Assembly (NCBI GenBank): GCA_963965975.1
Contig: OZ014416.1
Coordinates: forward strand, 6,014,001 to 6,078,000
DNA length: 64,000 bases
Direction: 5' to 3'
Origin: Xestospongia bergquistia
Taxonomy: Eukaryota; Porifera; Demospongiae; Haplosclerida; Petrosiidae
The notes beneath the pieces are model-generated. The model saw only the letters and a list, made by a program, of their open reading frames with translations, was not told the origin of the DNA and did no database searches. Below are positions 2,441-61,400 of the stretch, piece after piece; position 1 is the stretch's first letter, and every line of letters starts with the position of its first letter. Both the position numbers and the translations under genes were made by a program.

Positions 2441-2448
2441 TTTATTAA

Positions 2449-19400: not shown

Positions 19401-20575
19401 CTATGCATAGAATAGTTATAAAAATGACTATTACAGACAATTTCAATCCTTAACTTACCAGCAATAACACTTCCTTCTTAATATTCAGTGTAAAGACACC
19501 ACACCCAATTTTATAGTTGCCACGACAACACTCTTTTGAATAGAATAGTTATAAAAATGACTACTACAGATAATTTCCAACCTTAACTTACGAGCAATGG
19601 CTCTTTTTTTCTTAATATCAAGGTAAACACACCACACCCAATTTTATGGTTGCCATCACAACACTTCTATACATAGAATAGTTACAAAAATGACTATTAC
19701 AGACAATTTCAAACATTAACTTACCAGCAATAACTTTTTCTTCCTAATATTCAGGGTGAAGACATCACACACAATTTTACGGTTGCCAGGACAACACTCC
19801 TATGCAAAGAATAGTTATAAAAAAGACTACTACAGACAATTTCAAATCTTAAATCACCAGGAATAACTCTCTCCTTCTTCCTAATATTCAGAATAAAGAC
19901 ACCACACCCATGCAATTTTACAGTTGCCACAACAATACTCCTATGCATAGAATAGGTATAAAAATGACTATTACAGACAATTTCAAACATTAACTTACCA
20001 GCAATAACTTTTTCTTCCTAATATTCAGGGTGAAGACATCACACACAATTTTATGGTTGCCACGACAACACTCCTATGCATAGAATAGTTATAAAAATGA
20101 CTACTACAGACAATTTCAATCTTTAACTTACCAGCAATAACACTTTCTTCTTAATATTCAGTGTAAAGACACCACACCCAATTTTATAGTTGCCACGACA
20201 ACACTCTTTTGAATAGAATAGTTATAAAAATGACTACTACAGATAATTTCCAACCTTAACTTACGAGCAATGACTCTTTTTTCTTAATATCAAGGTAAAC
20301 ACACCACACCCAATTTTATGGTTGCCATCACAACACTTCTATACATAGAATAGTTACAAAAATGACTATTACAGACAATTTCAAACATTAACTTACCAGC
20401 AATAACTTTTCTTCCTAATATTCAGGGTGAAGACATCACACACAATTTTATGGTTGCCACGACAACACTCCTATGAATAGAATAGTTATAAAATGACTAC
20501 TACAGACAATTTCAATCCTTAACTTACCAGCAATAACTCTTTCTTTCTTCCAAATATTCAGGGTAAAGAATACCA
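16400..20575. repeat. Satellite array 2, monomer about 133 bp, about 31 units
   Basis: Tandem copies at 133-134-bp spacing; the landmark 'cctaatattcagggtt' occurs at about 17102, 17236 and 17369. Each unit runs through 'gagaccacacccaacttta', a near-palindromic 'cggttgccacgacaacac', 'tagaatagttataaaaatga', 'ctattacagacaattt' and 'accttaacttaccagcaata'. The central units (about 16.8-18.4 kb) are most alike, with a two-unit pattern of near-identical pairs; the edges are more diverged. Four units near 19.4-20.5 kb form a further local duplication. The minus-strand frame at 19751-19990 is a shadow of the repeat. Confidence 0.92.
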
Positions 20576-20599
20576 CACCTAATTTTATTATTGTCTTCT

Positions 20600-33399: not shown

Positions 33400-33530
33400 C
33401 CTGTGATATATCACTAACGGGACGTTATACACAGACCCGCCGAAAGGGCCCAGGGCAATGTGTACACGTGCGCTTGACGCGCAAAGCGCGCCGCGCAAAT
33501 TTAGTTTTAAGGAGGCGTGGTTTTCAACAA
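33400..33530. other. GC-rich island
   Basis: A sharp rise in GC within AT-rich DNA, with 'gcgcttgacgcgcaaagcgc' and 'cgcgcaaagcgcg', which can fold on itself. It is probably the remnant of a dispersed element. The 115-codon frame crossing it (33321-33668) owes its length to the low stop density of this GC-rich piece. Confidence 0.45.
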
Positions 33531-33689
33531 GTCATTAATTATCACATATTTCACGTTTTTCAAATCGTTATTACAACCACGTGTGAAGTAACTAGAGGTA
33601 AGTTGTTGTCAAGTATGTCAATTCTTTTACTTACATGCCTCTGTCTGGCTGTCTTCTATATGGATTAAACTTTTAATAACAAACAATAG

Positions 33690-34960
33690 ACATTTCTACT
33701 CTGGATCCTCCTTTGCAGTTCCTTCATGTCACTATGATATATGTTAACAAGCACTACACATCAATGCAATAGGCACAAATGAAGAATATTACAAAGAGCA
33801 GCTGTCAATTTAAAGAATTAAAATTATTGGAGGCATCCACCAATAAAAGTTTCTCCTTATCTTCAAACTCAAACATTCTCATAATACAACAGATGACAGC
33901 CTCATAATGAAAGTTTTGATATTCACAAAGTTGTGAGCAGCCAGCCACATTGACAATATTGTGTTTAATGACCAGTAAAATTTCTTTACTTATAGTATAG
34001 CAACAGATCTCTCCAATTTACCTACAGAGTGAACCCTGGGGCATTTATTGAGGGCAATTAACTAACACACAACAAGGGATGAGATTCCAATTTGGTGATG
34101 AAGATATGTCACACATAGTCTTCTAGCAAGAATAGAAAGAGATTCATAGAGATTGTCAGATAGAGATGCAAATGAGTTCCAGAGATGTTTCAGCAGGCAA
34201 AATCCAAGTCAAAAAGTCCTGTTCCAAGATCCAATTTCCGAGCAGTATGTTTCACAAGAAGGCTATCCAACTGTTGAAAAGGAACATGATGAGAAATCAG
34301 ACCAGGTTCAGGATATGTTTCTTTGAAGATCATCACAATGATGATTCCTCAGTAGATATCAATGAATTCAATGACAAAGGACTGTCACTATTCCTTCCAG
34401 GCTTGTTAAGGAGTCTATGAGCTGGATGCCTTAACTCTTTCTCAAGCATTAAACGAGACAATGAACATAGAAGAGTGTCCCCATTAAAATTATTAGGCCC
34501 AGCTGATATAACCTTTTTTTGGATAGAGCAACATTGAAACAAAAGTTCATTAAAGGTACTGTTTACCCCAGAGCTATATATATTGTTAACAAGAGCAGAA
34601 CTCTCAATATATGCTGAAAATATTTTGAAGAATTCCTTAACAATGGTTTTATCAACACTACCTAGGGAACCTTGAATAGATTCCTTGTTGAGTAAACAGC
34701 TCCAGCATAACAAGATTAAATTGAATCAATACTCATCACTTGAAAGTTCTACCATAATGAAAGATGGCTCAGGACAAAAGCAGGACCAGCACTGACAAAT
34801 AACTCACTGTTAATGTTCCATATCTGACAAAAGATTAGATTATTTCTCACCAAAAATGTCTGGAGAGTGTCCAACAACATGTTCATTAGAAATTAAGCAA
34901 GTATCATCAGAGACAGCAGCTGTTCAAGAAGAGTCAGCAAAGCCATTATCTTGAACAGTA
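33690..34960 (-). mobile_element. Fossil reverse-transcriptase element, minus strand
   Basis: The minus strand shows two blocks of one old retroelement. The upstream block (about 34330-34715) is a 126-codon frame ending in the 'LRHPAHRLLNKPG' region. The downstream block (about 33790-34130) contains 'LIALNKCPRVHSVG' and 'LLLVDASNNFNSLN'. Both match the pol protein of a family common in marine invertebrates, with 'LIALDKxPGVRPIG' and 'LLVDASNAFNSLNR' at the corresponding places; the second is reverse-transcriptase motif A. I think of this family as DIRS/Ngaro-like, but the class is uncertain. No terminal repeats or recombinase were found. The copy is broken, with several breaks, and is old. 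Confidence 0.6.
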
Positions 34961-35653
34961 GAATTGATAATTGCAGGACAGAGAACACTAGAGTTAGATA
35001 TTTGTGTAATAGAAGCAGGAAGAAAAACAGCATTGCAAAAGCATCCACTTAGCAGAAACGGCCTTTATATAGCCCTCTATTTTTGCAGGTGCAGCAAGCC
35101 GTTATCTTCATCTCACCATCTTACGCATTTACCCATTATGTGCATGATAAGAGCTGTAAATTAGGTGCTCCCCCACAGAGAGAAGTAACCTGTATTAGCA
35201 ATAACTCAGGAACAACTAAGTAACTAATGTAAATTAAAAATTAATATCTGATTTCTGAGGAAATTTAGTCTTTTTAGTAATTTAGTGTATCGTTGAGCTA
35301 ATTCTGTTGTCTAGTCAGTTACAAAAATAGTGTAAATTTATTCAGGTTATATCTTTTGTTTTCATTACCATTTCCAACTTAACGAGCAATGTTGAAAAAG
35401 ATAGTACTTCCAGCCACTATTTGTTTTATTGTTCAAATTATTGATCTCATGAGATGATATTTGAATTATTGTCATGAGAATGTTGTATATGATTTTACAA
35501 CAGCAATAAATAAAAACATACAGTTTATTCTCTTTGTTACATAAACTGATATATTATAATACATTATAATATAACTGATATATATACATTAAGATCTATA
35601 AAGAGCTAGATCAAGTGAATAGTACCAGCCAAGGGCTGCTAGCCCTCCTGGCT

Positions 35654-37460
35654 ATGGCTTCAAAGAAAGAGCAAGAAAGAATTGTAAGTATATTATCAAG
35701 TTATGCAGTATACTACATGTGTTAGTGTACAATTAATATATTACTTTTTATATGATAAATATGATGATGTAGTAAATAGTGTAGGGCCAAAATTAATATT
35801 CATAAATTTATTATTCATAGCACACTTTTAGTGTTGCTATGAATATAGTTAAAGTAATAATTATATACCATTGGGTGTGACCTGATGATTAACCATGAAT
35901 ATTATTATACAATAATAAGGGTGGCTGTGCACCCCAGGCACCCCCCCCCCCTTAGACCCGTTAGTGGTGAGTACTCTAACTCTTATAGTAGACTAGTGTC
36001 TGGTATTGTTATTACTAGTTGTATCCTTTGTTGTCTAGTTCAAGTGTTACGAAATGAAACTACTGTACAAATATTGTCACTTTGTGTATTTGACCTGTCC
36101 TATAGTGTTATTAGTCTCATATAATACATGTAGTTGTGTATGATTTACTATTTCTAAATGTAATGACTTGTTTTATTATTATATAGGACAGGGAACTTTG
36201 GGAGTCTGCTAGAAAGGGAAATGAAGAGGAAGTGAAACAATTAGTCCAGAATGGAGCAAACTTCAAATCTCGTCGTCATCATCATTATAATGTAAGATCT
36301 CATTAGTTTATTATCTAGTATGCTATTATTTGTATATACTAACTTAGTAATTAATTCAAAATATGTAGATTTAATGAGTATTAATTGTGTTTAGCTGTGT
36401 TTGTATTGTGTATACACAGATATGTAATTGGATTTATTTCATATATTAAAATGTCTTTGTTCATCATATAGATTTTTATTGAACCTCCTACAACACCTCA
36501 TACTATAGCTTACATCAATGGTCATGACATAATAGTAGACGTTCTTGAAAATGCAGGAGCTACTCCTGATTATGTAAGTGTATACAAGTATAGTATGTAG
36601 TTGATGTCGATATTTATAATTACTAGAATACTTGTTTGTTACATTCATATCATGTACATGTACATACTTGTATACTACATGAAAATGTCTCCTAGTTATT
36701 ATCAAGTCCTAGTACACATATCAATACATATATTGTTTATGTCTAGTTTTTACCATACTACCTTTCTTATTACTAGCTACTAACTATAGTATTAGTTTAA
36801 AGCATATTATGTCACACTAATGTACAGTATACAGTGTCAATAATTACCTTCATATAACACTTACAAAAAAAATGTCGCTGATTGACTAAACAATTACATA
36901 TCACAGTAGGCAAACCCACATTCATTTCTCACACGTATTTTAAATTATAGCTATAATTCTACTAACTTTAATGATATATTGGAGTACACAGTAAACATGC
37001 TTTGTTACCTTATCTTACATCTTGTTAGAAGACTAAATTTATTCCACATCGTTATCAGGAGCTGTTCGTATAACAGACACAATATTCATTTTAATAGAGA
37101 TCCTATCATTCCATCTACATTTAGAATAATATATAGTCATCTTTGAGATTTAGTACAAAGTATTCAGTAAAGCTGATAGACTTGTGTCAAACATTTATAC
37201 AATAATTATTAGAAGAATACATGTATATATAAAGAACTGGGAAATTAATTAGTGGTTTGTTGTACTAGTCACAATTATATGTAATTAAACTCAACACTTG
37301 TATATACTGTTGTATTTATTATGATGTATATTATCTGTATTTACTTGTTATGATTTATTAGAATGAAATTATGCTAGCAGCTGCTGAAAGAGGACTAGTA
37401 GACATAGTGAAAGAAACTATTCAAAAGAAGGCAAATGTAAATTATCAGGACAAAGATGGA
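35654..37460 (+). CDS. N-terminal exons 1-4 of the ankyrin gene
   Basis: Exon 1 is only ten codons (MASKKEQERI) before gtaagt. Exon 2 reads 'DRELWESARKGNEEEVKQLV', a typical first ankyrin repeat with the 'ELxEAAxxGxxxxVxxLL' pattern. Exon 3 has 'TTPHTIAYINGHDIIVDVLE', a degenerate repeat. Exon 4 reads 'NEIMLAAAERGLVDIVKETI' and ends in 'NVNYQDKDG', a good capping match to the next unit. Each internal exon is a whole number of codons (35, 34 and 33). A 'tata' and 'tataa' rich stretch at 35550-35600 may hold the promoter, but AT-richness makes that weak. Confidence 0.8.
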
Positions 37461-40400
37461 GTAAGTTATTATCTTATAATAATGAATGATTGTTTACTAG
37501 TAAATGATAGTTTTTCTGTCATTAATTTGATAATTACAAGTTTTTAGATAATTTGTTAATTGTTTAGTTTAGATAAGTTTTAGTTTATTAATTATTTAGT
37601 ATTATTTATTATTGAAGTTTTAGGTATAGCTATACATCTACAAAAAAGTAAATTAAAAAAAAACATTTTCTAAAAATATAATAAACTTAGTGATGAGTAA
37701 CATCATTCCAATACAGAGAATACAAACAAGACAGTAGGAATGACAATTGTATTTTCCCTACATAATATCACAGTCATAGAATACAACAATGCATCACTGA
37801 TATTATTTAAGTAATTTAAATATTGTTGGTTAATATCCTAAATTGTTTGTGCCAACTATGTAATTATGTAAAGATAATGTAATTGTCTTTGAATGATGCT
37901 AGAGTTCTTGCTATGAACATTCTATTGTTCCCATTACAAGGTTAACAAATATTTCAGATGTTTCCTTGCTATATTGTACATAGAAATTTGGACATTTGCC
38001 TTGTCCACACAGATAAAAATATGTTAGTACAGATTTCGCTGTATATTCATAATACACTTTTTAAAATTTACCTATATGTTACAGCCCACAAGCCATAAAT
38101 GCATTTTAATTTTATCAGTTATTTCCATATATGAAAATACATATAGCTGTAATTTCAATAACAGTTAGTTATGAAGTTAGATGTTCTTTCATGATGCTCA
38201 TGTACTCCTAATAGTACACAAGAATCATTCTCAATGTCTACTATTACAATATGAATATTATCAGTCATAGTTTTAATAATATTCCTAGTAATATAAAGAA
38301 AGTCAGTGGCTAATTAGGTTTTGAGATAGTCATTGTATAACCACAATGTAAAAAAAGATGTATTTCTAGTAAAACAAACTGTCATTACTGTAGCAAGTAA
38401 TTTGTAATTTTGTTATGATATAAATACTGTCACTATGATGTAACTGATTGAGTTTATATATTTATCTACTGTAGTATTGAACAGTTATTAGTAATTAATT
38501 TTTAGCCACATTATTTAATGTTTATTCTTTCTATAGGATCATCAGACTGCTTTGCATTATGCTTCAAGGGCAGGACACATTGAGACTGTCAAGTTACTCT
38601 TAACAGCTAAGGCAGACCCCAATATTTGTGACAAGGTTTGTATTATGTCTAGAGATGGTAGTTTATACATTTGTCTACCTTAGTATTGAACAGATTTTGG
38701 TAATTATTTGTAGCCACATTATTTACTGTTTATTCTTTCTACAGGATCATAAGACTGCTTTGCATTATGCTTCAAAGGCAGGACAAATTGAAACAGTCCA
38801 GTCACTCTTAACTAATGCAGACCCCAATATTTGTGACAAGGTTTGTACTATGTCTAGAGATGGTTTCTTATTCCATGTACTTGTGTATTGTGTTCATTCC
38901 ATGTACATGTACGTAAAACTACTAGTATGTATTATATCAGTAAAGGATTTATAATAATATACATGTACATGTACATCACTAAACATTATACAGATAACCT
39001 AGCTAAGAGGTTATAGCACATAAGCTATCACAACATAAAACACTTATCAGTTATATCCATATATGGAAATAGATATAGCCTTGATTTCGATAACAATTGC
39101 ATACCGTATTTTGATATTCTTTTACGACAGTAATGTGTCCCGATAGTACACAGGGCAAAACCAACCCTACTATCCACTATTATAAGATATGAATATCATC
39201 AGTCATATTATTATTAATATTAAATATTGGGCAGGTATGACATCTTGACTGTCTTGTCTTGACATTTTTAGACATTGAGCTATTATTTTAAAAAGTAAAT
39301 ACTTTAAACAGTCTAAGGATATAATTCTAAATCAACTTTGTTTTAGATAATAAAAGTAGCAAGGGCAAGTATTTTGAAACTTAGACTATATGTAGTCAAT
39401 ACTTGTTTTTCTTACAGTTCCATTGTTAAGATTTACAAGTACTGTATTATCAAAGATACATTAGTATAATGTGTGTATATGGAGTGACTACATCACTATC
39501 TCATAAAGGGTTTTTAGAAACTTTTGTTTACTAATATCTTAATGATTATCAAAGTTGTATATGAACATTCTTTAAAAATTGGCACACAATGACTATATAT
39601 TTCAAAAGTTTTTACCACAAGAAGTGGAAAATGTAGCAAAACTATACAGATACAACAAAGTCATGACTTTATCTCTGTACTCATATATTTTTAAATTGCC
39701 ACTAACTTCATTACAAGCACATACAATTCTACGTGTACCATCTATGAATAATTTCCTTCAATATTCTTTACGTAACACTACTAATGTGTGACTATTTGTA
39801 ATGTCAATTTTATAGAATCAGGAGACTGCATTGCACAGTGCCTCATAACAAGGTCATCTTATGATGGCCAAGTTATGTTTACACAATGATATGATGCTGA
39901 TCCTAATATTCATGTATTGTGTATAGTTTGTATTTTATTTGGTGTCTCTACTACATGTACATATATGTAGTACTACCTGTCTAAGTAAGATGTGATATAT
40001 GTAATGATAAAAGGCCAGTTTGTTGGGAACAGTTGAAATAGCTTTAATAATACTTAATAATGTTATGGAAACATAAATTATAACCTTCTATAATATTGTG
40101 TTTATTTTTCTCTATATTTTGGTAATGTCAATAAACTTCTCTAAATTGATGATTTTAATGCCATTGACCTAATCAAGATTATATTTGATACCTGTAGTTT
40201 GATTACCTCTCCTTGTTTGACTTTACTACTTACTATATAACGTATTCCAGTATTTTTATTGTCAGTTCATTTGTGATAATGGGAGCAATATATTAGCAAT
40301 ATCTCTATAGTCTAGTTGATGTGTTATTGACACTCACACAACAACCATCCAATTTATAGTATATGTAACTTATACCATATATAATGATTGCTTTACTTTA

Positions 40401-43400
40401 ATACACTACAGTTACAATTTATAATAGAAGTTGTAATTCTTTTAATAATGATTATATGTAAGTATATTCTATAAAATCATAGTATGAAATAGAAATCCTT
40501 TAAATGTTGTAGTAATTGTTAAAAAATATAATCTCATTTTATAGTGGGGACATAGTCCACTTCATATAGCATACTGGAATAATAATCATAACATTGTTAA
40601 CCTCTTGTGCTCTTTTGGAGCAAGAGATATGGACCAAGTTAGAAATGTAAGTGATAAATATAATAATATATTTACTGTATATGATGATATGGATCTTACA
40701 TATTATGATATATTATAAAAATAACCTAATTATATGTGGGTACATTATATACATATACATTATTTAACAGGATGACTTACTTTTGACTTCAGCTGAAAAT
40801 AGTGATATATATAATGTAAATGTAGCACTTACATCAGGTGCTAATGTCAATGTTCATCATGGTCGTTTATTGAAGGTTAGTATACTGATTATTGTATATG
40901 TATTGTTAGTAGTACATGTGGTCTGTTAGTATATACTTTAAAGTACTACTGTAAAGGCTGGTTCACAAAACTACACTTGTATATGTGTTGTGTTGTGTTG
41001 TGTTCTTAATGTTGTGTGGTGTTGCATAGCATAATATCATTTCTGTTCATATAAATAAGAGGAAGAATGTAAACTAAAACTCCACCATTGTCAATAGAAA
41101 CTCTATTAGTGCGGAATGGTGACTAAAGTGTAATTGCTTGCTTTTTTTACAGATGATAAAAAAGTCAACAGAAGTGAAGAACATTGTGGATATGTCCTAT
41201 ATTTACTTAACGGCTGCAACAAGGAGAGTTTCAGATTTGCTATGCCTGGCTGACCATTTTCTTCCATGCATTTTGTCTTACATCATTGTAGCTTTTGCTA
41301 GATTCTTGCCACAAGTAAAGGAAACAGCAAACAGCCTCAATAACTTTTTCATTTGCTAGAGAGGTCTCTATGTTAGAAATTGTAAAATAAAATGTCACCA
41401 ATGCTACCTACTATTATAGTTATTTAAATGATTGATAAGTTTTACCTTTTTCATTTTAAACAAGAAGAAATTAGTGTCCTACTAGTTTAAAGTTTGTTCA
41501 TTAGTAACAGAAAACATTGGCTATTGTCTACTATCAGAATTTGAATATTATAAGTCATACCTTTAATATTATTAATAGTACAGTTAGTGACTTAGTAGGG
41601 TTCAGTTTTTAGATAGACATTGTCTATTATAATAACCACAATGTAAAAAATATCATAGTAAAACTTAAAGCTGTCATTACTGTAGCAAATAAATTGTAAT
41701 GTTGTTATGATTTATATACTGTCACTATGATATAACACATTGTCTTCATAAATTTATCTACTGTAGTATTAAACAATTATTAGTAATTAATTTCTAGTCA
41801 TATTATTTACTGTTTATTCTTTTTATAGGGTCATCAGACTGCTTTGCATTATGCGTCAAGGGCAGGACACATTGAGACAGTCCAGTTACTCTTAACAGCT
41901 AAGGCAGATCCCAATATTTGTGACCAGGTTTGTATTATGTCTAGAGATGGTAGTTTATACATTTATGTACTGTAGTATTGAACAGTTATTAATAATTAAT
42001 TTGTAGTCACATTATTTACTGTTTATTCTTTTTATAGGGTCAACAGACTGCTTTGCATTATGCGTCAAGGGTAGGACACATTGAGACAGTCCAGTTACTC
42101 TTAACAGCTAAGGCAGATCCCAATATTTGTGACATGGTTTGTATTATGTCTAGAGATGGTAGTTTATACATTTTTGTACTGTTGTATTGAACAGTTATTA
42201 ATAATTAATTTGTAGTCACATATTTTACTGTTTATTCTTTTTATAGTATTATCAAACTGCTTTGCATTATGCTTCAAGGGCAGGACACATTGAGATAGTC
42301 CAGTTACTCTTAACAGCTAAGGCAGATCCCAATATTTGTGACAAGGTTTGTATTATGTCTAGAGATGGTAGTTTATACATTTATGTACTGTAGTATGAAA
42401 CAGTTATTAATAATTATTTTGTAGCTACATATTTTACTGTTTATTCTTTCTATAGGATCATCAGAATGCTTTGCATTATGCTTCAGGGGCAGGACATATT
42501 GAAACAGTCCAGTCACTGTTAACAACTAATGCAGATCCCAATAATTGTGACAAGGTTTGTATTATGTCTAGAGATGGTTCCTATTCCATATACTTGTGTA
42601 TTGTGTTTATTCCATGTACATGTATGTAATACTACTAGTATGTATCATATCACTACAGGATATTATAATAATATACATGTACATGTACATCACTAAACAT
42701 AATACAGACAACATAGCTAAGAGGTTATAGCACACAAGCTATGACAACATAAAACACTTATCAGTTATATCCATATATGGATGCCTTAATTCAATAACAA
42801 TTAGATATGGTAGTTTGATATTCCTTTACGACAGTAATATGTCCCTGATAGCACACAGGGCAAAACCAACCCTACTATACACTATTAGGATATGAATATC
42901 ATCAGTCATATTATTATTAATATTAAATATTGGGCAGGTATGACATCTTGACTGTCTTGTCTTGACATATTTAGACATTGAGCTATTATTTTATAGAGTA
43001 AATACTTTAAACAGTCTAAGGATATAATTCTAAATCAACTTTGTTTTAGATAATAAAAGTAGCAAGGGCAAGTATTTTGAAACTTAGACTATATGTAGTC
43101 AATACTTGTTTTTCTTACAGTTCCATTGTTAAGATTTACAAGTACTGTATTATCAAAGATACATTAACTTAATGTGTGTATATGGAGTCAATACTTCACT
43201 ATCTCATAAAGGGTTTTTAGAAACTTTTGTTTACTAGTATCTTAATGATTATCAAAGTTGTATATGAACATTCTTTAAAAATGGTCACACAATGACTATA
43301 TATTTCAAAAGTTTTTACCACAAGAAGTGGAAAATGTAACAAAACTATACAGATACAACAAAGTCATGACTTTATCTCTGTACTCATATATTTTTAAATT

Positions 43401-46400
43401 ACATCTAACTTCATAACAAGCACATGTAATTCTACATGTACAATTATGAACAATTTCATTTAATATTCTTTACATTACACTACTAATGTCTGACTATTTG
43501 TAATGTCAATTTTATGGAATCAGGAGACTACATTGCAGAGTGCCTCAAAACAAGGTCATCTTATGATGGCCAAGTTATGTTTACACAATGATATGATGCT
43601 GATCCTAATATTCATGTATTGTGTATAGTTTGTATTTTATTTGTTGTTTCTACTATAAGTACATATATGTAGTACTACCTGTCTAGTAGGACATGATATA
43701 TACTCCTGACAAAAGGCCAGTTTGTTGGATACAGTTGAAATAGCTTTAATAATAGTTAATGATGTTATGGAAACATAAATTATAACCTTCTGTAATATTG
43801 TGTTTATTTTTCTCTATATTTTGGAAATGTCAATAAACTTCTCTAAATTAATGATTTTAATCCCAATGACCTAATTAAGATTATATTTGATACCTGTAGT
43901 TTGATTACTACTCCTTGTTTGACTTTACTACTTACCATATAATGGATTCCAGTATGTTTATTGTCAGTTCATTTGTGATAAAGGGAGCAATATATTAGTA
44001 ATATCTCTATAGTCTAGTTGATGTGTTATTGACACTCACACAACAACTGTCCAATTTATAGTATATGTAACTTATATCATACATAATGTTTGCTTTAATT
44101 TAACACACTATAATTGTAGCTTATGATAGGAGTTTTAATTGTTTTAATAATGATTATATGTAAGTTTATTGTATGAAAACATTGTATGGAATAGAATCCT
44201 TTAAACATTGCAGTAAATGTTAATACATTACATTTTATAGTGGGGACATACTCCAGTTCATATAGCATACTGGAATAATCTACATAACATTGTTGACCTC
44301 TTGTGTTCTTTTAGAGGAGATATGGACCAAGTTAGAAATGTAAGTGATAAATATAATAATGTATTTACTGTATATGATGACATGGACATAGTGATCTTAC
44401 ATATTATGATATATTATAAACATGACCTAATTATATGTGGGTACATGTCACAGTTATAATACTATATTATTTATTTTAACAGGATGACTTACTTTTGACT
44501 TCAGCTGAAAATGGTGATATACATAATGTAAATTTAGCACTTACATCAGGTGCTAATGTCAATGTTCATCATATATTGAAGGTTAGTATACTTATTATAG
44601 TACATGTATTGTTAGTAGTACTTGTGGTCTGTTAGTACATACTTTAAAGTACTACTATAAAGGTGAGTTCACAAAACTACACTTGTATATGTGTCATGTT
44701 GTGTTCTTAGTCTTGTGTTGCACAGCATCATTGCTGTTCATATAAACAAGAGGAAGCATTTAAGCTAAAACTCTATACAGATTTGCTATACAGATGATAA
44801 AGAAGGCAATAAAAACGAATAACAATGTGGATGTGTCTTATATTTACTCAATGGCTGCAACAAAGAGAGTTTCACAATTTGCTTTAAGAAATGTGCCTGC
44901 CTGGCCATTATCTTCCAGCCATTTTCTCTTGCATCATTGTAGCTTTTGCTAGATACTTGCCACAAGCAAAGGAAACAGCAAACAACCTCAATAACCTTCT
45001 TATTTGCCAGAGAAGTCTCTATATTAGAAATTATAAAGTAATATGCCACCTGCACTACCTATTATGATAGTTATTTAAACAGTTGATAACTTTTACCTTT
45101 TTTCATTTTAAAGAAGAGGAAATTAATGTCCTACAAGTTTAACGTTTTTCATTAGTAAAAGAAAACTTTGACTATTGTCCACTGTCAGAATTTGAATATT
45201 ATCAGTGATAGCTTAAATAATACTAAATACTGTTAATGACTAGTAGGGTTCAATTTTTAATGGTCATTGTATACTATAATAACCCCAGGAACCCATGAGC
45301 ATCGCGAAGCTAGTCGAAGGAGCGTCAAACTGCCATTATATTTGTATTCTAACCATTGTCGAAACACAGTCATGGATTATTCCATATAAGGAAATACACT
45401 AAGTAGCATAAGTACTGATAAGTATGTGATAGAGCAATGAATATTATTACAATCATCAATGGTGAGAAAATAAAAAAATTAAAAAAGAAGTTATGTATAT
45501 CGAGAAACGTTTAAAAGAACTAGACTTGTAGGTTATGGAGGCTTTTGTCATTAAAGAGGTGGAAACAGTTGAACAACATATTTCTTTATTCACTTGTGTT
45601 ATTAAAACCTATTAATTATAAGGTTAATATTATCTGATATTATAACATTATTAATAGAATGAACAGTCAGTACTTCTTTCGGTTGTATAATGTACGTTTC
45701 AAATCATGTTTTTATATAAAGAGTGGTGCACTTCTATAGCCTCCACATTGACACCTCAGCTTGCCATGAACACTTACTACTGCATCTCTGGCAATAGCAT
45801 ATTTCAGAGATGATAATTGGCCAGAGGTGGCATGCTTGACCTGGCTAAAGAAGGTCTCAACTGGACTACCATTGAGATGTACTGGATATATTATGTACCC
45901 AGAAGTGAAATCAGCACATAAGTTCTTAAAGCCATAATACATGAGCCTGAGTAAGTCCCAGGTTTACCAACAGTAAGCCTGAAATGTCCCATTTGTTCAG
46001 CCATTCTTTGGTCCATTGACAGAGTCAGCCGCTGTTTTCGCAAAGCAGGGACTTCCGTGTCTTCAGAAGGTCGCTTCTTGACTTCTCTTAAATTTATCTA
46101 TTTAAACCACACCTAACGAAGAGGTTACAGCCCAGAAGCTATTAAAATGCAAAACACTTTGGAGTTATGTCCATATATGGACATATGTTCTAAGCCTTTA
46201 TTCGACAACAGTTGGTTCAGTGAGTTTGACGCTCCTTCTCGTCGCTCATGACGCTCATGCGCTCTTGATAACCACAATGTAAAAAATGTACTATAAGTTG
46301 TCATTATTGTAGCAAATAATTTGTAATGTTGTTATGATATAAATACTGTAAATATGATGAAACTGATTGACTTTATATATTTATCTACTGTAGTATTTAA

Positions 46401-49400
46401 CAGTTATTAGTAATTAATTTGTAGCAACATTATTTACTGTTTATTCTTTCTATAGTATCATAAAACTGCTTTGCATTATGCTTCAAGTGCAGGACACATT
46501 GAGATAGTCCAGTTATTCTTAAGTGCGAAGGCAAACTCCAATATTCGTGACCAGGTTAGTATTATATAGAGAGATGGTTTATATTCCATGTACTTGTGTA
46601 TTGTGTTCACTCCATGTACATGTATGTAATACTACTAGTATGTATTATATCGGTACAGGATATTATAATAATATACATTTACATGTACATCACTAAACAT
46701 GACACAGACAACATCAACCAACAATCTTACACAACTCTGCCCTGAGTGTTGAAAGTAAATGACAATTTTCAATGTATTTTATTCAAGCTCTGTACTTTTT
46801 CGAAGAGAGGTTTTAGATAGTGCTCACATTCTTCATCAGTAAATCCGGTTTGAATATGGTGATAGCACCATCAGACCCCACCCTTACCCAAATCACAGCT
46901 ATGATGCTTACAACCTCAGCAATCCTTTTCAGTTCAAACCTAGTCACTCTCCATGACACTCCATCCCCAATATGTCTGGCTGTCCACTTCCTTTCATGCA
47001 TTTTCTATTGTTCTTGAATCCTTGCAGCTTTGGTTAAGTACTGGCCACAAGCAAAGAAAACAGCAGACAGCATCTATAAGTTTCTTTTTTGCCAAAGAAC
47101 ACATTGAAATTTAAGAACATTGTTATTGAAATCTGATTGGCTAAATGCATTGTTTGAAATTTTGAGATGGAAACCAGTTCTGTCCTCGTGCTGTGACTCA
47201 TCACATTTGTGCATCATGTATGTGCTTTGGTTATAAATTGAAGTATGTACACAATGTGATATGACACAAAGCTTTGTGTCATTATGTGAACCATTCTTAA
47301 GGCCCTGAATATTAGAGGGTTCAAATTTTGTGTTTTGGGACAAAACTCTATTATTCATGAGACTCTATTTGCATATGGGAATTTGAGATGGTAAGGTGAA
47401 GCTAAATTACTTTGCAAATAAACAAAAAACACTTACTTTATTGCACATTAACTTAAAGATTTAATTTATTGATACTAATCTATATAATTATAATACAAAC
47501 TAATGTAAGAAGTAATAGCAATGGGATATTGTAATGTCCTAATCACTTTATTGACTGACTAGAATTTATTATCATGAAAAACTAAGAAAGTGAACAACTT
47601 AAATAGAAGTAGAGCAAATGAGAACTAACTTAAATAGAAGTAGAGCAAATGAGAACTAATTTACACATGAACAAAAGCTATACAAGAAAAGAACAATGTA
47701 ACAATAACCTAGCATAAAAGATATTAACACGAAGTAATCAACACAAACCATAATTGTATAATCCTAAATTTACACTAATTAACAAACTTAGGTTAGTTCA
47801 CAACAGATATTATCTGTTATTACTATAATATTGAGTCATCATGTGTGATGACTTGATATATAGAGTCACAGAGATATATAGCAATCTTTTAATACAACTT
47901 TGATAACACTTTAAAAACTACTTTTAAATAATACATATAACATATATGACATTTATATAGCATACATAAGATAGCATTATAGTGGGACAGGGCAGATAAT
48001 TGTATTCATAATACACATAATAATAAGACTTATACAACTAAAAATAAAATCAAATAGTATTATGATACCAGTCTGGAGGATTCGTTCGATGAGAGGATCT
48101 ACGTAAAGGAACAATTTTGTTCATTCGATCGAGGTTCAGGGAATTCGCCTCCCGTCTGAATTAGGTCATAATTAATTGGTTCTTGACTTGGCTCAGTTTG
48201 AGCAACTGGTGTTTGGCTGAGCTCTATTTCTTCTCCATCCAAACGAAATCTGAGATGATCAACATGACGTTTTAACTCTCGTACATCGGTCACCTTAACT
48301 ACATATGATACCGGACCATTTACTCAAAATACCACTCCAGATAGCCATTGTTCTCCCCTATAAAAATTCTTCAAGTACACATTATCTCCAATCTTAAACT
48401 CACATAACTTAGTACCTCTATCATGACACTCCTTTTTCCTAACCTGTTTTGTTTGAACCTTCCTATTGAGGTCTGGGTGCAAATGATCTAATTGAGACTT
48501 TAGTTTATGACCAAACATTAACTCTGCAGATGAGTGTTCTGTCACACTCGAGAGGTATTACGATAAGTAAATAAAAACCTTGAAATCCTCATGTTCAAAG
48601 TTCCTTCAGTCTGGTTCTTTATCCCTCATTTGACAATTTGTACTGCTCTTTCTGCTTGGCCATTGCTAGATGGATGGTAAGGTGCTACTCTAGTGTGCAC
48701 AATGCCATTGTTGTCCATAAATTCTTTAAATTCATGACTAGAAAAAGATGTACCATTATCAGAAACCACCTTGTCAGGAATTCCAAAATTTGAAAACAAA
48801 TGTCGGAGCTTCTCTATCGTCTCTGCTGATGATGTTGAGTTTACGGGCATCGCATCTATCCATTTCAAGTAAGCATCCATCACAATTAATAGTGTATGAC
48901 CCAATACCGGACCCACATGATCCAAGGGCTTGTTGGATACTCCCACGGATGTAATGGTGCTAGTGCTGGAGATTTTCTATTAGATTGACATACATGACAC
49001 TCCCTTACTTTCAATGTCAGTATCCATCTTTGGCCACCAAACATATGACCTTGCTAATGCCTTCATTCTTGATACTCCCGGGTGACATTGATGAAGTTCA
49101 TCTAAGACTGCCTTCCTGCAATGTGGTGGAACAACCACACGAGATCCAAACAAGATACAGTTGTCTAATACACTTAGTTCGAATTTGTGCCTAACATATG
49201 GTTTTAGGTCTACATCTCCATCAATATTTTCTGGCCACCCATGTCTTATCAAGTGCCTCACTCTCGATAGAGTTTTGTCTCTATTCATCCATTTAATGAT
49301 TTCAGACACTGATATTGTTGTGGAGTTCAAATGCTCAATCAAATTAAATAGCTCCGTTGATGTGGCATCTTCAATACCACTTTAAAAACCACTTTTAAGT

Positions 49401-52400
49401 AATACTTACATGATAACATATATGACATTTATATAGCGTACATAAGATAGCGTTATAGTGGGACAGGACAGATAATTGTATTCATAATGCACATAACAAA
49501 CACATTATTACTACATCATGTCAAGAGATACAGGTAAACACAATATTCAGTGACTAACAACAAATCTACATTCTGTGACAATTGATTGACATGATTGAGC
49601 AGTACTAGTAAACACTGTAACAAGCAATCACTATAAATGTTATGTGTTATAATTAAACAGTGTGATAAAGATCATTGTTTCTAAAAAGCAGTATATAGTT
49701 AATTATATTAACTTTAATTAGATGACTGTGTTTTATGTAGTCATATAGATTTATTAATTGTCATTGGTTTTGAAATCATTAAATTTAAGGTAAACTAATA
49801 CCTTTTGATATATTCTATGACTGGGTAGGTATTTAACAGAAACATCATCATAAACAATACATTGATAAGACCAAATGCCACAAATATCTATGAAGTGCAA
49901 GGGCAAGTTGAATTTTAATACTAATTAAGTAATAATTAAATTAAGTATTAATACTAATTGATGATACACACCAAGCTTGAAGAGAATTTTCTTCTGGTGG
50001 AATTTTAAATGAATAGGCCTGAAAGTGAGCTAGTGAGTGAATTTGGGTATGTGTTAGACAAGTGTAATGATATCTGGTAGCAGCTCTTACAGTTACTCAA
50101 ACTATATTATAATAACCACATAGTAAAAAATGTACTAGTAAACTTAAAGCTATCATTATTGTAGCAAATAACTTGTAATGCTATCTGATAGCAGCACTTA
50201 TAGTTATTCAAACTATAATGATTACATTTTGTCCGCCAATATCCCGGAAAGACCCTTTATAGGATGATAGTGGGGTGGGGTATTGAATGTAGAGCCCAAA
50301 GAGAAGCCAGATAATGGTGCTAGGCCGATTTTGGCCACAGGGTCACTGTAGACTTGAAAGAGAGTCAGGTGTGACAGTCACAGGGGAATGTGGTCCTATA
50401 ATTTAGTAAATTAAGCAAACAGAGAAAAAGACACAAAAAAAATAAAGGAGTGTGGCAAGCAGCTTGTAACTAATGTACTGACTGACCAGAAGATCTGTTG
50501 GTATTTGGGACTGTTGGTCCTTCAGTTCTGATGCCACAACAGTGCAGATTGGTGCACAACATTCCTCAGCTCAGAGCTTCTCTGAGTTACAAGAAATGTT
50601 ATGTAGATTATCTGTCTCCTTGGATCCTGTTAGTCCCATCAAATAGTTGAAAGTGAAAAAAACATCAAACTAGAAAAAAAAGTGGCAATTCAGGCTCATA
50701 GGTTATCTTGGCACACTAGCTAGACTGGCCTTGATATATGTGAGGTTGAACTTTATAGAAAGTAGACAGTAAACTATATAGTCAATGTAACCAGTCATCA
50801 GTACACATCATCATAACATTTGTATCACATTGTAACAAGTAACAAACTGTAAAATTGTTAAATGAAATTGGACAAGCTGATATCAACACTAAGGATGAAG
50901 TAAGTCACTATAATTTTATTACAAGACATATCATTGCAACAAATTATGACTAACTAAGTAATTCTAATTACATCATTTAAGGTTAATAAATCAATAAGAC
51001 GCATGATTTGAGGTATATTACTGATTCGATAAGAAACCTGTTCTCTACAACAACAGTTCTTTACCAGTTCATAATTCTTTTAATAAGTTTTATAAAACAT
51101 TTCACTGATAATGCTAATGTGTATTATTGATGAATTCAATTAGCAAGTGTGCAATATTAGAAACCATTTTTTGCAGTAACTATTTCAAATTTCTCTCATA
51201 AATAATGCCAAATGTTTTTAGGTATTAAATTCATTATTCGTCAATCACCATGAAAATGTTGCAAAAATTTCTTAACTAAATGTATTTATGAAATCATAAA
51301 ATCCAAGGTATCATGTCATCATAGAAGAAAGCAATAGCACATAATTTAATATAGCAACAGCACATATGTCAACAGTTACTAAGTAAAAGAAAGCATGTCA
51401 CCATAACATGAATTGCTACAGCTGCTGCCTATGTGTCACCATAGTAACTGTTACTATAACAACAACATTGTGTGTAACGATAAAAACTATTACCTTGGTG
51501 ACTGTTGTCATTATACGACTATAGTATAACAACAATTAACAATGTCTTAGTTACCATAGTAACATTGGTATAGAAATTACGTATGTATCATAATAGCAAT
51601 GATTTCTATTGTAACTGTTTCATAACATCATTGCATTATGAACTATTGTATAATATAAATATATCATTGTTGATTGAGAGTATACTCATACAACAAAGTA
51701 CATGTACATATAATGTTCCAAAGATATTCTTATACAATCTGTACCTTGTAATGTTCTCATTATTGTGTACAGCTTGTTTGAATAGAAAATCAGGATTACT
51801 TTCTTTAAAACTACAGAACAGTGAAGTCATTTAAATAGTGTACATTTGTATAATATATTATGATTGATGATGTGAACAATTTGCTGACATAATAATGATG
51901 TAATGATGTTCCAATAGTACACTAGCCATACATTTCACTTCTTCCTAGTGTCTGTGATATAAAAGAGGATAAATTATCTTTGTTTCTGGTGTGAACACAG
52001 CTGTGAAACTTGAAACACTTAATTAAACTTGTACATGCGTATGGATTTATTGTGTGATGTAATACATTGCAATTAATAGTTTTGCAATCCATAATCCACT
52101 CGCAAAAGTCACTTGACTTAAATACACACAAAATATATCGGAAATACAGTATTTATTGATAACTGGTTATATTGACTGTATAGTTTATTATCTAATAGTT
52201 GTTGTCTAATATTTGTTCTTTTGTAATTAAATAAACTTGTCTATTTTGTTCCTAGAGAGGACGTACACCTGCACATCTTGCAGCGGAGAATGGATATACT
52301 GACACAGTAAAACTGTTAATTGAAATTGGACAAGCTGATATCAATACTAATGATGAAGTAAGTCACAGTAATTGTAATACAAGACATATCATTGTACCAA

Positions 52401-55400
52401 ATTATGACCAATGAAGTATTTCAAATTACTTCCTTTGAGTCTAATTAACCAATAAGACATATGATTTGAAGTGTATTAGTGATTCAATATGAAACCTGCA
52501 CTCTACAGCAATTGTTCTTTTATAAGTTTTATAAAACATCTCAATGATAATACTAATGTGTATTATTGATGAATTCAATTAGCAAATGTGCAATATTAGT
52601 ACTCTCATTATATGACTTGTGACATGGCTATTATATTTACATATGTATATAACATAAGAACTAACAAATAAAGTTCAAAGTTTCTCTCTGTTAGTCATGA
52701 TGCTTTTAATCATAGCCATTTTTCTAACTACATCAGAAGCTTGTTTGCTTGGCAGGCAATATTTGTTTTCTTTGTACTACAAGACATTGCATTCATTTAA
52801 GTAGTTTACATTAATATAATATATTATGATTTATGATGTCAACAATTTGGTGTTATCTACTGTTATTTTTGATGCTCTTGCTATCTTATTCTTTTCAGCC
52901 TCTGTATTTGTTGATCAAAGTTTTCATTAAATTTATCTCTTTTTCTTTTCTTCTCTTTCTCTTCTTTTTCTTACTAAATGTTGTTGACAGTCTTCAATAT
53001 TCTTCTCACTATATATGCGTTTCTAGTTGTACTTGTGCAGCCACACCCACTAAACAATATTGCCAATGGTCATTACTGGGGAACAATTAGACTAATAGCA
53101 ATAGCATTGGATTGGCCTGACAAAGTCACTAACAGGACTCAACCTTGTATCCTTTTGATTTTGCCTTCATCTGATAAAAGACTGATATGTTGCCACCTTG
53201 ATCTTTGGACACACACCCACTAAACAATCTTCCCAATGCCCATTACTGGGGAACAATTAGACTCATAGCATTAACAGTAGATTAACCTGACAAAATAATT
53301 AACAGAACACAACCTTGTATCTTTTTAATTTGCCTTTATCTTATATGTTGCCACCTCCTTCATCTTTAGACACACACCCACTAAATAATGCCCATTACTT
53401 GGGAACAATTAGACTCATAGCATTAGCAGTAGCTTGGCCTGACAAAGTCACTTACAGGACACAACCTTGTTTTCTTTCAATTTTGCCTTTGTCTGATATG
53501 TTGCCGCCTCCTTGATCTTTGGACATAGTGTAGTCTTCTTGATATCAAAGGCATAATCCGCCATTTCTTCTGCTACTTGTTCATCATAGTTGTTCTTGAT
53601 CAACTTTACTGTACTTCTACTAAAGGTTTGTTTCAGCTTCCTTGTAAAGTAACATGCTAGTGATGATGCTACAGCTGAAGTATTATGATGATTGGCATAC
53701 TTTCCAATATCAGTGTGAAGTTCTGGACTGTACGTGTTATAGGAGCCTCTTCCTTTTTCCTTGCATTTCTCTGCACCAAGAGATCTTGCTGCTGTGAAAT
53801 GGTTTCTGAAGAAATTGAAAAATCACCTAAAGTTTTCTTACTCTTTGCTGTAGTTGCTTTCTGTTGAACAAAATTAATCCTTGCAAGTAGAGACTTCACC
53901 CAGTGTCTGCTAAGTTCAATGTGTCTACCAAATTCAATAATCTTGTTTTTAGCATATTTCATGTTGAAGTCACAAGCAGTTGACACAGCAATTCTAGTAT
54001 TCACCACTCCTCCACACTCTTCTAAGGTATAATTGTACCAGAATATCTAAATTTTGGCTTCTTCACTCACTTCTCCCAACCATCCAGTACACTTTCATTA
54101 ACTGTTTTAATAATAGATTCCCAAGTGTAATAATTTGTGATTAATAGTTTTGCGATCCATAATCCACTCACAAAAGTTGCAAGACTTAAATAGATGCAAA
54201 GCATACTGGAAGTACGGTATTTACTGATAAATGGTTACATTGACTGTATAGTTTACTGTCTAATAGTTGTTGTCTAATATTTGTTCTTTAGTAATTAAAT
54301 AAACTTGTCTATTTTGTTTCTAGAGAGGATGTACACCTGCACATCTTGCAGCAGAGAATGGATATACTGACACAGTAAAACTGTTAATTGAATTTGGACA
54401 AGCTGATATCAATACTAAGGATGAAGTAAGTCACAGTATTGTAATACAAGACATAATTATCATTGTACCAAATTATGACCAATGAAGTATTTCAAATTAC
54501 TTCATTTGAGTGTAATTAATCAATAAGACATATGATTTGAAGTGTATTAGTGATTCAATAAGAAACCTGCACTCTACAGCAATTGTTCTTTACCAGTTCA
54601 TGATTCTTTTAATAAGTTTTATAAAACATTTTAATGAAAATGGTATTGTGTATTATTGATGAATTCAATTAGCAAAAGTGTAATAATGCTGAACAAAGTT
54701 AATACTTGCAAGTAGAGACTTCACCCAGTGTCTGCTAAATTCAATGTGTCTACCAAATTCAATAATCTTGTTTTTAGCATATTTCATGTTGAGATCACAA
54801 GCAGCTGACACAGCAATTCTGGTATTCACCACTTGTCCACCCTCTCTAATTTTTCTATGGTATAATTGTACCAGAATATCTTATTTCTAGCCTAGAAGAG
54901 GTGGCTTGCCACAATGCTTCTTCATCAGTAGTTTCTTCAGCAGAGTTGCTCAGCCATCTGGTATTTTTTTGCTGATCCAACTCTTCATCATAGTTGTTCT
55001 TGATCAACTGTACTGTACTTCTACTAACAGTTTGTTTCAGCTTCCTTGTAAAGTAACGTGCAGCAGCTGAAATATCATGATGATTGGGATACTTTCCAAT
55101 ATCACTGCAAAACTCCAGACTGTACTTGTTAAAAGAGCCTCTTTCTTTTTCCTGGCATTTCTCTGCTCCAAGAGAGCTTGCTCTCTTCTTTGTTGTGAAA
55201 TGGCTTCTGAAGTAATTGATGATGATAAATCACCTCTTGGGTCTTGTAACCCATCAATTGGCTTGTAATATCAATAAATAGTCATTACTAAGCAGTAAGC
55301 ATTCTCATGTCTCTGTTACAAGGTAACACGTTTCTCTAAATCATAAACTTTAACTACTATAATTGTTTATACTAGTGCAATTTTTCATTCTGCAATAAAT

Positions 55401-58400: not shown

Positions 58401-61400
58401 CATTGTCAGCTGCTGAGATGAAAAATATTTAGAAATGGATCTTTAATTATACATTTATTACATCATCAGTGCTTTAAATATGTACTTGATTGAACAAATG
58501 GTTGTCTATGCTACATGTTCAAAGCATAATGAGAAAATTAAGTAGGCCTTGAATGTTGCAACTTCAATCATTTTTTCTTTGAATAAATTCCAACAAATAT
58601 TTAATTTGCATTCTTCACTTTGTTGGTTACTAGAAGTGAAAGTTATGAACAGTTCTTGACTTCTAAATCATCATCATCATCATTTGCTATTCTTTCACTT
58701 TCAGTATTGTCAGTATTTCTTTGTATACCATTGACTAGAAGGATAGCAATAAACAGTTGGTAAATTGAAATATCTTTGATGGCAAATTCATCTGTTTCAA
58801 CCAATATAATTTTCCAGAACGGTGTGTCTTTTAACATGGGAGTCATGATGAGCATTCTTTCAAATAACATTGAATGTTATGATGTTATTTGTAAAGTTGA
58901 TTAGGAACTACATCTTTCAGATTCTTGGAGTCTTTCGTGATCTCCTTGCCCTGTGTTTTAGTCTCTGTGATCTAAAGAGCAAAAATTTGTCTAATATTTC
59001 AGATATAGTCATATCATAAACTCAATGCTTTATGAGTAATAGAAATGTGACAATGCCTCCAAATTGTTGCTAATATTTAACACAGAATGAATTTTATTAA
59101 CAAGCACTTCATAAGCTTCCTAGCCACCACCTTATTAGTATCACATCAAGACAATGTAAACATTTTACAAAAATGCCTTCTTTGTTGTTCACTGAAGTGT
59201 TTTTCAATAAATGTTTATGCATAATAATAACACATACTAAATTTTAATCATAAGTAATCTTTGTAGCAACCAGTAACAAATTCACGGCATAATGGTATTA
59301 TGAGGCTCATAATGGCTAAAGGGTATTTTTGTGTGTGAGTGGTGTTTATGACATGTGTATTTTTACTATTTTACTTGTTTAATGATGAATTTCAGTGTAT
59401 TGATGTCCTAGCTTGTTTAGGAAGAACAATAATCTAAATCATTCACTGTTAAGAGAGAAAAGCAATAACCTAAATTATTCGCTGTTGAGAAGGTACAAAA
59501 CCAAAATTAAATATATATATATGTTACAATAAGATTATGTATATAGGGATTTTCAGAAATCCCTGAAACTTTCAGGGAGTTTGTGAAATCACTTTTTCAT
59601 TTAGGGACTTCATATAACCCGAAATCCTAAACCTTAAAACCTAACCTGAAGTCCTTAAGTGAAAAAGTGATTTCACAAACTTCCTAAACCCTAAACCCTA
59701 ACATGAAGATTCTAAGTGAAAAAGTGATTTCACAAACTCCCTGAATGTTTCAGGGATTTCGGAAAACCCTTATATACACAATCTTACTGTAACATATAGA
59801 TAGATAGGTAGGTAGGTAGGTTTTCTTTCTTTGATAGCCAATGTAACACATTTTTGCTTTTACATCTTAAATGTTCAGATAACCAAATTTTCATTCTATT
59901 TGGTAATTACATAATATTATGTACATTGTAATCTAGATTGCAATAATAATGAATAAAAATATAATTTTATTCTTCACAGAATGGGGACTCTCCATTACAT
60001 CTTGCTTGCGCAAAAAGTAAAGTAGATGTGATTTCATATCTACTTCACACAGGAAAAGTCGATCCACTTGCTCATAACAATAATGGGAATAAACCACTAG
60101 AAGAAGTCCAACTGAATGATCCAAACAGATTTGAAATATTGAAGATGTTTGAGCCATTTGAGAAAAAACGTCATGACTATCCAGTTGATTCATATAGAAA
60201 AGTAATTTTTTGTGGGAACATGTCAGCTGGAAAGAGTTCATTAGCCCAATGTATTGTATATCGTGCTGATAAACCTGCTGATTATCACTACGACCCCTTA
60301 AAATGCATTGAAGGTGTGCAATTGGAAACTGCTGGTATTAGTTATAATAATGTTCGTAGTTATGAAGTTGGCAATATTATTCTTTATGATTTTGCTGGTC
60401 ATCAAGAATATTATAGTAGTCATGCAGCTGTGTTGGAGAATATTATGTTGAGAACTCCTGCAGTTTTCACGATAGTGATAGATTCAACCAAAGGTCTTGA
60501 CTACTTCAAGAAACAGTTGTATTATTGGTTTAACTTTATTGAAAATGTGTGCACTAATTTAACCAAACATTCTCAAGTGATTGTTGTTGGAAGTTATGCT
60601 GATCAATTTACCAGTAGTTATGATGAATTCAAGTTGAATATTGATTTTGTTGTCAAAGATGCCATTCGTAAACAAGAGTATAGAGGTTTTGTTGCCATGG
60701 AGTGCCATCGCCCAGGTGGAAAAGGTTTCCCTGAATTCATTGTTCACCTTCGTGAAAGTTGTGAAGCTGTTCTTGATAAGTCAGATACCATTAGTTATTA
60801 TTGCCACGTGCATTATGCTTACCTCCAAACACTACAGAAAGTAGCCATTAGTCTTGATGAGCTTAATAAAATTTTAAAAGATCTTAATGATCCATCTCTC
60901 CCTTCAGATGAAACAGTTTTGCATGACTACTTGTCAACTCTCAGTGACAAAGGTCTTGTTCTGTTTCTGAGAAATGAAATAGTATCTAATAGTTGGATTG
61001 TAATTGACAAATCAAACCTCCTTGCTGAAGTTAATGGTGTTCTTTTTAATAAGTACATCAAGCGTCTTCCTATACCAACCTCTAGCAACACTGGTATTGT
61101 CCATGTTTCTGTTTTACAAGAGCTCTTTCCAGCCTATGATACAAGTATGCTTATTGATTTTTTGAAAAGCATGGAATTTTGTCATGTTTTTGATTCAGAA
61201 ACAGTTAATACTATTACAACCAACCTTTCTTCATCAGATCACATATCTAATGTTGACATTCTTTTTTTTCCAGCTCTTGTCACCACAGAGCCTCCTTCAG
61301 ATTTAAATGAACATTTCAAAAGTGGGTTTGGTTGGTGCTTATACTGCCCTAATCCATTACAATTCCTCTCTGTTCGCTTCCTTCACATTCTTTTGCTTCG

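Follow-up and report, generated by a model that had tools for sequence, protein, structure and literature searches.

We analyzed a 64,000-nucleotide stretch of the Xestospongia bergquistia genome (here referred to as the window), which corresponds to positions 6014001 to 6078000 of contig C6 in the 146.5-Mb, 21-contig genome. All of the parts described below between 35654 and 62700 lie on the + strand (Table 1), and we infer that they could form a single gene with one transcript running from 35654 to about 62.7 kb. The exons from 35654 through A, B, C, the first D array, F, G, and H are all phase 0. The probable first coding exon is identical in a paralogous stretch (L032) and was found by pattern in 2 of 21 stretches. 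A DNA search with the 91-bp first-exon region gave matches at 15 places on C6, one of them in the window. Exon A was recovered in 11 rows including the window, one of which has a stop near the projected exon end. No Pfam match was found for exons A, B, and G. Exon H contains a stop, so the second array must either be reached by skipping H or go untranslated; judging from its sequence, H may be an alternative last exon that yields a short ankyrin-only form. The start of this exon, MIKKxxE, recurs in many paralogue rows. Elsewhere in the window, positions 16639 to 20587 hold a long tandem array in which a 133-bp unit is present about 30 times (89% matches), and positions 2446 to 6506 hold a 138-bp unit that was reported in two overlapping rows (25.2 copies at 3076 to 6506 and 7.5 copies at 2446 to 3480).

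Table 1. Coordinates of the features at the ankyrin exon locus, as positions in the window
Feature	Position	Strand	Remarks
Probable first coding exon, MASKKEQERI	35654-35683	+	Phase-0 donor GTAAGT; putative start
Exon A	36187-36291	+	105 nt, phase 0; ankyrin-like by position and home-made HMM
Exon B	36472-36573	+	102 nt, phase 0
Exon C, ankyrin repeat	37362-37460	+	99 nt; Pfam Ank 19.8 bits, below the cutoff of 21.1
First block copy (array plus F, G, and H)	38451-41640	+	87.5% identical to 42161-45287
D exon 1, first array (2 units)	38537-38635	+	99 nt; profile and splice sites
D exon 2, first array	38745-38840	+	96 nt, one codon less
Decayed ankyrin exon E	39817-39927	+	In-frame TAA, frameshift
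Exon F, ankyrin repeat	40545-40646	+	Pfam Ank 26.5 bits
Exon G	40771-40875	+	Phase 0
Exon H with stop	41153-41359	+	Alternative terminal exon or skipped (candidate roles)
D exon 1, second array	41829-41927	+	99 nt; Pfam Ank 40.6 bits
Intron from D exon 1 to D exon 2 (110 nt)	41928-42037	+	Equal length at 42137-42246 and 42346-42455
D exon 2, second array	42038-42136	+	99 nt
Second block copy as aligned	42161-45287	+	Start lies within the second array, ahead of unit 3
D exon 3, second array	42247-42345	+	99 nt
D exon 4, second array	42456-42554	+	99 nt; placed apart from units 1 to 3 in the tree
Exon F, second copy	44241-44339	+	In frame, 3 nt less
Exon G, second copy	44483-44581	+	In frame, 6 nt less
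Exon H, second copy	44794-44952	+	Shorter frame, 52 versus 68 codons to the stop
Single D-type exon	46456-46554	+	Profile match
Ankyrin-like phase-0 exon candidate	52256-52357	+	Home-made HMM, E 2.6e-6
Ankyrin-like phase-0 exon candidate	54324-54425	+	Home-made HMM, E 1.1e-6
Open frame: ankyrin repeat, Roc GTPase domain, and long C-terminal part	59965-62094	+	Pfam
C-terminal Death-like stretch	62380-62700	+	Overlap of one listed relative with a Pfam Death match

An initial annotation of this DNA had placed ankyrin exons every 209 bp from 41829 onward, together with a related pair 208 bp apart at 38537 and 38745. The four exons of the second array bore this out exactly in coordinates, length, phase, and splice sites: each is an open, phase-0 exon with AG before it and GT after it, and the exon starts are spaced at precisely 209 bp. 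Tandem Repeats Finder returned 41748 to 42578 as 4.0 copies of a 209-bp period (92% matches, 0% indels), with a score of 1382, on which we rejected a chance repeat as the origin of the array. For the first array it returned 38451 to 38864 as 2.0 copies of a 208-bp period (88% matches; score of 661), in agreement with the predicted pair, whose second exon is 96 nt long. The exon at 41829 to 41927 matched PF00023 (Ank) at 40.6 bits against a cutoff of 21.1 and thus qualifies as an ankyrin repeat; by eye and by an HMM built here, all four second-array exons are one-repeat ankyrin sequences, and the repeat type of the 41829 exon aligned to DARPins without gaps in the alignments shown. Units 1 to 3 are identical to one another at 91 to 95 of 99 exon positions and at 101 to 105 of 110 positions of the following intron (coordinates offset by one base). 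Unit 4 is less similar to them (85 to 87 of 99 exon positions) and is followed by a different intron, which is identical at 44 to 46 of 110 positions in an ungapped comparison. The second array therefore consists of three complete exon-plus-intron units and a terminal exon, rather than the four complete splice units proposed originally.

The two arrays belong to a duplicated block, in the alignment of which units 3 and 4 of the second array pair with the two units of the first. Exon E, decayed in the first copy, has a second copy near 43525 that lacks an acceptor AG; exon decay therefore does occur at this locus. The second array (41829 to 42554) could itself be a dead or noncoding 3' fragment of the block duplication, with the first array alone translated, to the end of exon H. 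Such an account fits the stop at 41359, the resemblance of the sequence from 41525 onward to the intron before the first array, the shorter frame of the second H, and the missing acceptor of the second E. In addition, no second start exon was seen ahead of the second array, by pattern or by DNA search, which together with the stop in H means that the second array may be unexpressed or expressed only by exon skipping. Against it, the D exons, F, and G of the second copy are open and retain splice sites, with length changes in multiples of 3, and three further stretches that carry two arrays (4 and 7 units in L013, 6 and 9 in L015, and 2 and 2 in L019, compared with 2 and 4 in the window) keep both of them open. 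We regard a dead second array as doubtful, though a serious contender, and it would be compatible with our preferred reading (below) for the remaining family.

The Roc-containing frame begins 17.4 kb downstream of the second array on the same strand, with a transposon integrase in between. The latter is a retroelement-type integrase fragment (Pfam rve, 46.7 bits) at 48626 to 48976 on the - strand. Within the frame, Pfam Ank (25.5 bits) and Roc (PF08477; 31.5 bits against a cutoff of 27) both scored above their cutoffs, and at least 63 places in the genome match the frame, its own locus among them (best 63 of 355 candidates scored). No Pfam match to a COR domain was found after Roc at E values up to 5, though the length and position would fit one. 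The initial annotation had spoken of a Death-domain protein, a description that applies here to a Death-like stretch at 62380 to 62700, which lies outside the array and has no Pfam Death score. This stretch matched no Pfam family, Death included, at an E value of 5, and a PDB search returned three chains, all unrelated (best E of 0.51). A single-sequence AlphaFold model made with no alignment was helical but weak, with a pLDDT of 54. A relative at C1:25995761-25996060 (39% identity) overlaps a Pfam Death match at C1:25995785-25996027; this was 1 overlap between the 150 relatives and the 150 Pfam Death matches listed, compared by eye. At the level of sequence we therefore call the stretch Death-like, and not a Death domain recognized by Pfam. 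The genome as a whole has at least 150 places above the Pfam Death cutoff (150 of 983 candidates scored), a very large Death-domain repertoire. DAPK-type proteins have the order ankyrin, Roc, COR, and Death, and the Pfam Roc family is named after DAPkinase. The order of ankyrin, Roc, and Death-like part at this locus is similar, but unlike in DAPK-type proteins, no kinase was seen in the parts scanned here.

To place the arrays in their family, we examined 20 further stretches that were picked because they matched, which with the window gives a sample of 21 rather than a census; in the genome search with the D exon, 150 of 1728 candidates were scored. A profile run over the 21 stretches gave 84 D matches, of which 76 were strong and 8, mostly decayed exon E, were dropped (E above 1e-20). 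With exon ends projected from the 99-nt query, GT followed all 76 strong units, AG preceded 73, and none contained a stop, a figure that is valid for strong matches only because the weak ones had been dropped beforehand. Two of the three units without AG are the first units of L021 (position 4710) and L017 (position 4445), which have tg and ac, respectively, in its place and a frame that is still open. The unit is found repeatedly along C6, and the 76 units occupy 42 places: 30 hold a single unit, five hold 2 units, two hold 3, two hold 4, and arrays of 6, 7, and 9 units occur once each. Across these arrays the intron is 110 nt long in 22 of 34 cases, and the D units share one repeat per exon, a single phase, and a tandem arrangement. 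On contig C13, four equal-scoring D-type exons (3407810, 3629266, 3819024, and 4029306) stand 190 to 221 kb apart, each with a further match 17.9 kb away on the opposite strand, which suggests large repeated segments or assembly duplication.

We then considered how the repeats differ. Exon residues 1, 3, 11, 12, 24, 31, and 33 are, by our mapping, what we take to be the binding-face positions varied in DARPin libraries. A first contact set (1, 3, 11, 12, and 33) was our own choice, made after the exon alignment had been inspected; the full set was in use before the alignment to DARPins, which then bore the mapping out. In designed repeats, surface positions are randomized (excerpts of PMC8683736). 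With our own implementation of a codon model, applied to 75 of the 76 exons (the 96-nt unit was omitted) on an exon-plus-intron tree that is affected by recombination, omega was 2.09 at the seven mapped positions and 0.69 elsewhere. The two-omega fit was better than a single omega (2 delta lnL of 73.0) and better than omega fixed at 1 (25.5), and an intron-only tree gave similar values of 2.18 at the contact positions and 0.69 elsewhere. A three-class mixture of the M2a type, which is given no positions, picked out sites 1, 3, 11, and 12 with posteriors of >0.9 on the exon-plus-intron tree. On the intron-only tree it listed nine sites, adding 17, 19, 21, 23, and 28; we place less trust in this list because site 21 has mainly synonymous changes (15, versus 7 replacement changes).

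Tree-free comparisons gave a compatible picture. In five overlapping designs of 37 or 28 disjoint pairs, aligned with gaps, the ratio of contact pN to intron rate was 1.35 to 2.44 (lower bounds, 1.02 to 1.94), and replacement exceeded synonymous change at contact positions by 1.74- to 2.58-fold; the segments for choosing and for measuring pairs are separate in the first three designs, and the last two choose on exon letters. Random sets of seven sites reached the value of the contact set in 14 of 20,000 draws with 37 pairs and in 27 of 20,000 with 28 pairs, in a test whose intron rate comes in part from the segment used to choose the pairs. An ungapped intron control, from which rows with gaps were dropped (leaving 1 pair for exon F), gave contact pN close to the intron rate (0.223 versus 0.215 and 0.195 versus 0.183). 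We tentatively put this null result down to misregister at indels and to the different downstream intron of terminal units; with a gapped alignment in place of the ungapped one, the near-equality was gone. Finally, seven hand-picked young pairs of single units, with one unit used twice, differ at 28 of 693 exon positions and at 10 of 735 positions in the 105 nt upstream (Fisher P = 0.0017).

These results bear on a rival account of the locus, namely, ordinary tandem exon duplication in an expanding cluster of ankyrin genes, in which an old segmental duplication set the unit numbers and the variable sites reflect relaxation and not selection. For the D exon as a whole, pN/pS is 0.96 and the one-omega fit gives 0.98, both about 1 as such an account would have it. 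Exons in arrays of at least three units are also as alike between arrays (88.8%; 500 pairs) as within them (88.7%; 90 pairs). Among the other exons, all with few changes, pN/pS is 1.13 for A and 1.75 for B, so that values above 1 are not unique to D; it is 1.52 for F (1 pair) and 0.58 for both C (6 pairs) and G, and from these ratios C and G look constrained while A and B do not. Relaxation predicts an omega of 1 everywhere, though, in conflict with the elevated value at the seven mapped sites and the reduced value at the rest, and it is likewise at odds with young pairs that differ more in the exon than upstream of it. We consider relaxed duplication unlikely, and the codon comparisons point to diversifying selection on binding-face sites. 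That selection makes credible the original suggestion that the arrays serve to change a binding surface. It also qualifies the statement that exon and intron are equally alike, which holds for units 1 to 3 and for the array averages but hides a difference within the exon: the identities are equal because the exon value pools rapidly changing contact codons with slowly changing framework codons.

There has been recent change in unit number. Two segments of C6, 6367277 to 6385538 and 6752001 to 6770519, share 98.72% identity across 18,228 aligned columns, and their D arrays have two and three units. The alignment contains two gaps of at least 15 bp, one of 215 bp that corresponds to one unit in the array and another of 28 bp. 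Of the differences, 41 fall in the 750 columns of three adjacent 250-column bins that cover the array and its upstream side, compared with about 193 in the 17,478 columns outside them, where three other bins reach 11 to 12. The initial annotation had proposed that gain or loss of units would leave the frame open, and the paralogous arrays of 1 to 9 units and the near-identical duplicates with 2 versus 3 agree with it. The first units of the duplicate partners L021 and L017 are 93.6% identical to each other and 93.6 and 94.9% identical to the window unit at 38537, although in the downstream flanks the two duplicates share 99.3% identity, compared with 90.5 to 90.8% to the window. Being as close to the window as to the duplicate partner despite these flanks, the first units suggest exchange between loci. 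Divergence is also mosaic along the gene: window positions 33408 to 36158, which cover the upstream and first-exon region, differ from L032 (C6:6742000-6744750) at 14 of 2750 positions (99.5% identical), the next bin differs at 5 of 250, and from 36409 onward the difference is 135 of 2195 (6%). The abrupt change near exon B is a mosaic boundary between the window and L032.

In the tree of units, second-array units 1 to 3 group together with an SH-aLRT support of 94 (below the 95 mark), and unit 4 is placed in a seven-member group (support of 90) together with unit 2 of the first array. The remaining members are two single units, the last unit of one further array, and the first units of two more arrays; because of these first units, a "last-type" label for the group is not clean. 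The grouping of units 1 to 3, together with the placement of unit 4 beside its sister unit 2, indicates that the second array probably grew from two to four units after the block duplication (87.5% identity).

We also asked whether the difference of 2 versus 3 units, or the array itself, could be partly an assembly artifact of collapsed or split haplotypes. The 18-kb segments are 98.7% identical on one contig, and C13 has four repeats of similar content, as such an artifact might produce. The duplicates are, on the other hand, 385 kb apart with loci L015 and L016 between them, and the units of their two arrays differ by 4 to 15% and so cannot be collapsed copies. Were the segments alleles after all, the difference would be an allelic change in unit number. 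An artifact of this kind therefore seems to us very improbable.

The initial annotation had further described the unit as behaving like a satellite. The units do stand head to tail at a constant period, as in a satellite or VNTR, and introns are slightly more alike within arrays (90.8%; 61 pairs) than between them (87.8%). When array labels were mapped on the tree, 26 changes were needed, compared with a mean of 33.3 for shuffled labels (as low in 0 of 200 shuffles) and a least possible number of 11, so that local clustering is present but incomplete. The ends of the arrays differ from the interior: the first units of all 12 arrays fall in one of two main tree groups, and the last units of 7 of the 12 fall in the other (support of 84). 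Within the 9-unit array there is a partial four-unit pattern, with units 2 and 6 at 99% and units 4 and 8 at 96%, while units 3 and 7 (93%) and 1 and 5 (86%) are not outstanding. The description thus stands for the period, the clustering of labels, and the introns, and fails for the exons, which are no more alike within arrays than between them, and for the array ends. The arrays appear only partly homogenized, and they are a satellite in geometry and only partly so in evolution. A true homogenized satellite that happens to be translated has the exact spacing, the label clustering, the slightly closer introns, and the partial four-unit pattern on its side, but the exon identities, the excess of label changes over the least possible, and the divergence of contact codons against conserved framework codons led us to reject the simple form and make the idea very improbable.

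In our judgment, the simplest account is that the array probably forms the variable portion of a large recognition gene of the ankyrin-Roc-(COR)-Death-like type, one of a diversifying, clustered family. In the mechanism that we propose, the genes form a multigene cluster on one chromosome; each exon specifies a single ankyrin repeat, with every junction in phase 0. Unequal exchange between homologous introns would add or remove whole repeats, and given one repeat per exon and phase-0 junctions throughout, it would keep the frame intact. Exchange between loci would carry repeats from gene to gene, and selection favors amino acid change at binding-face residues. The product may act inside the cell as a recognition protein, with an ankyrin surface that would bind changing ligands (self/non-self or microbial) and with signaling through Roc and the Death-like domain. 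As a more tentative extension of this reading, the family could be an animal germline-variable receptor locus, independent of those of brown algae and fungi, in which single-repeat ankyrin exons and their introns are reshuffled both inside and among Roc/Death-like genes, so that individuals, or even cells, would differ in their ankyrin surfaces and the locus would serve to recognize self/non-self or microbes; we consider this possible rather than likely.

Two described systems resemble this arrangement. According to the excerpts of PMC11378527, brown-algal LRR-ROCO genes encode one LRR per 72-bp phase-2 exon, with positively selected concave sites and alternative splicing. These LRR-ROC-COR genes share with the sponge family one repeat per exon, a single phase, shuffled or duplicated repeat exons, large family size, diversifying selection on a (there concave) binding face, and a Roc domain (excerpts of PMC11378527). 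They differ in the repeat, a 72-bp phase-2 LRR there and a 99-bp phase-0 ankyrin repeat with a Death-like C terminus here, and in that repeats and Roc lie in one gene there while their linkage is predicted from genome sequence here (same excerpts). In the passages of PMC4986451 on Podospora NACHT-ANK NLRs, repeat number is polymorphic between isolates and the selected sites lie on the concave face, with one exception. The highly alike ankyrin repeats, the change in their number, and the selected sites of the concave face and beta-hairpin/loop are similar to what we see here (PMC4986451, same passages). Unlike in the fungus, the switch is Roc rather than NACHT, and the number differs between paralogues of one assembly rather than between isolates (PMC4986451, same passages). 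In the sponge arrays, every repeat sits on a separate exon with an accompanying intron. A looser parallel is found in excerpts on the SRCR repeats of DMBT1, an innate-defense gene in which the number of binding domains varies (PMC4851238 and PMC4946147); unlike the protein predicted here, DMBT1 is a secreted SRCR protein, and its copy number is reported to vary between people. Among the matches listed in the open-license literature, none described ankyrin exons in tandem in a ROCO-type gene of an animal.

The locus thus appears to be an animal counterpart of two nonanimal systems, with ankyrin repeats as in fungal NLRs and an exon-wise layout near Roc as in brown-algal ROCOs. The 209-bp units offer a compact, countable marker for the pace of surface change. 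If transcripts and population data agree, the same variable-receptor solution would have arisen again in an animal without antibody-type immunity.
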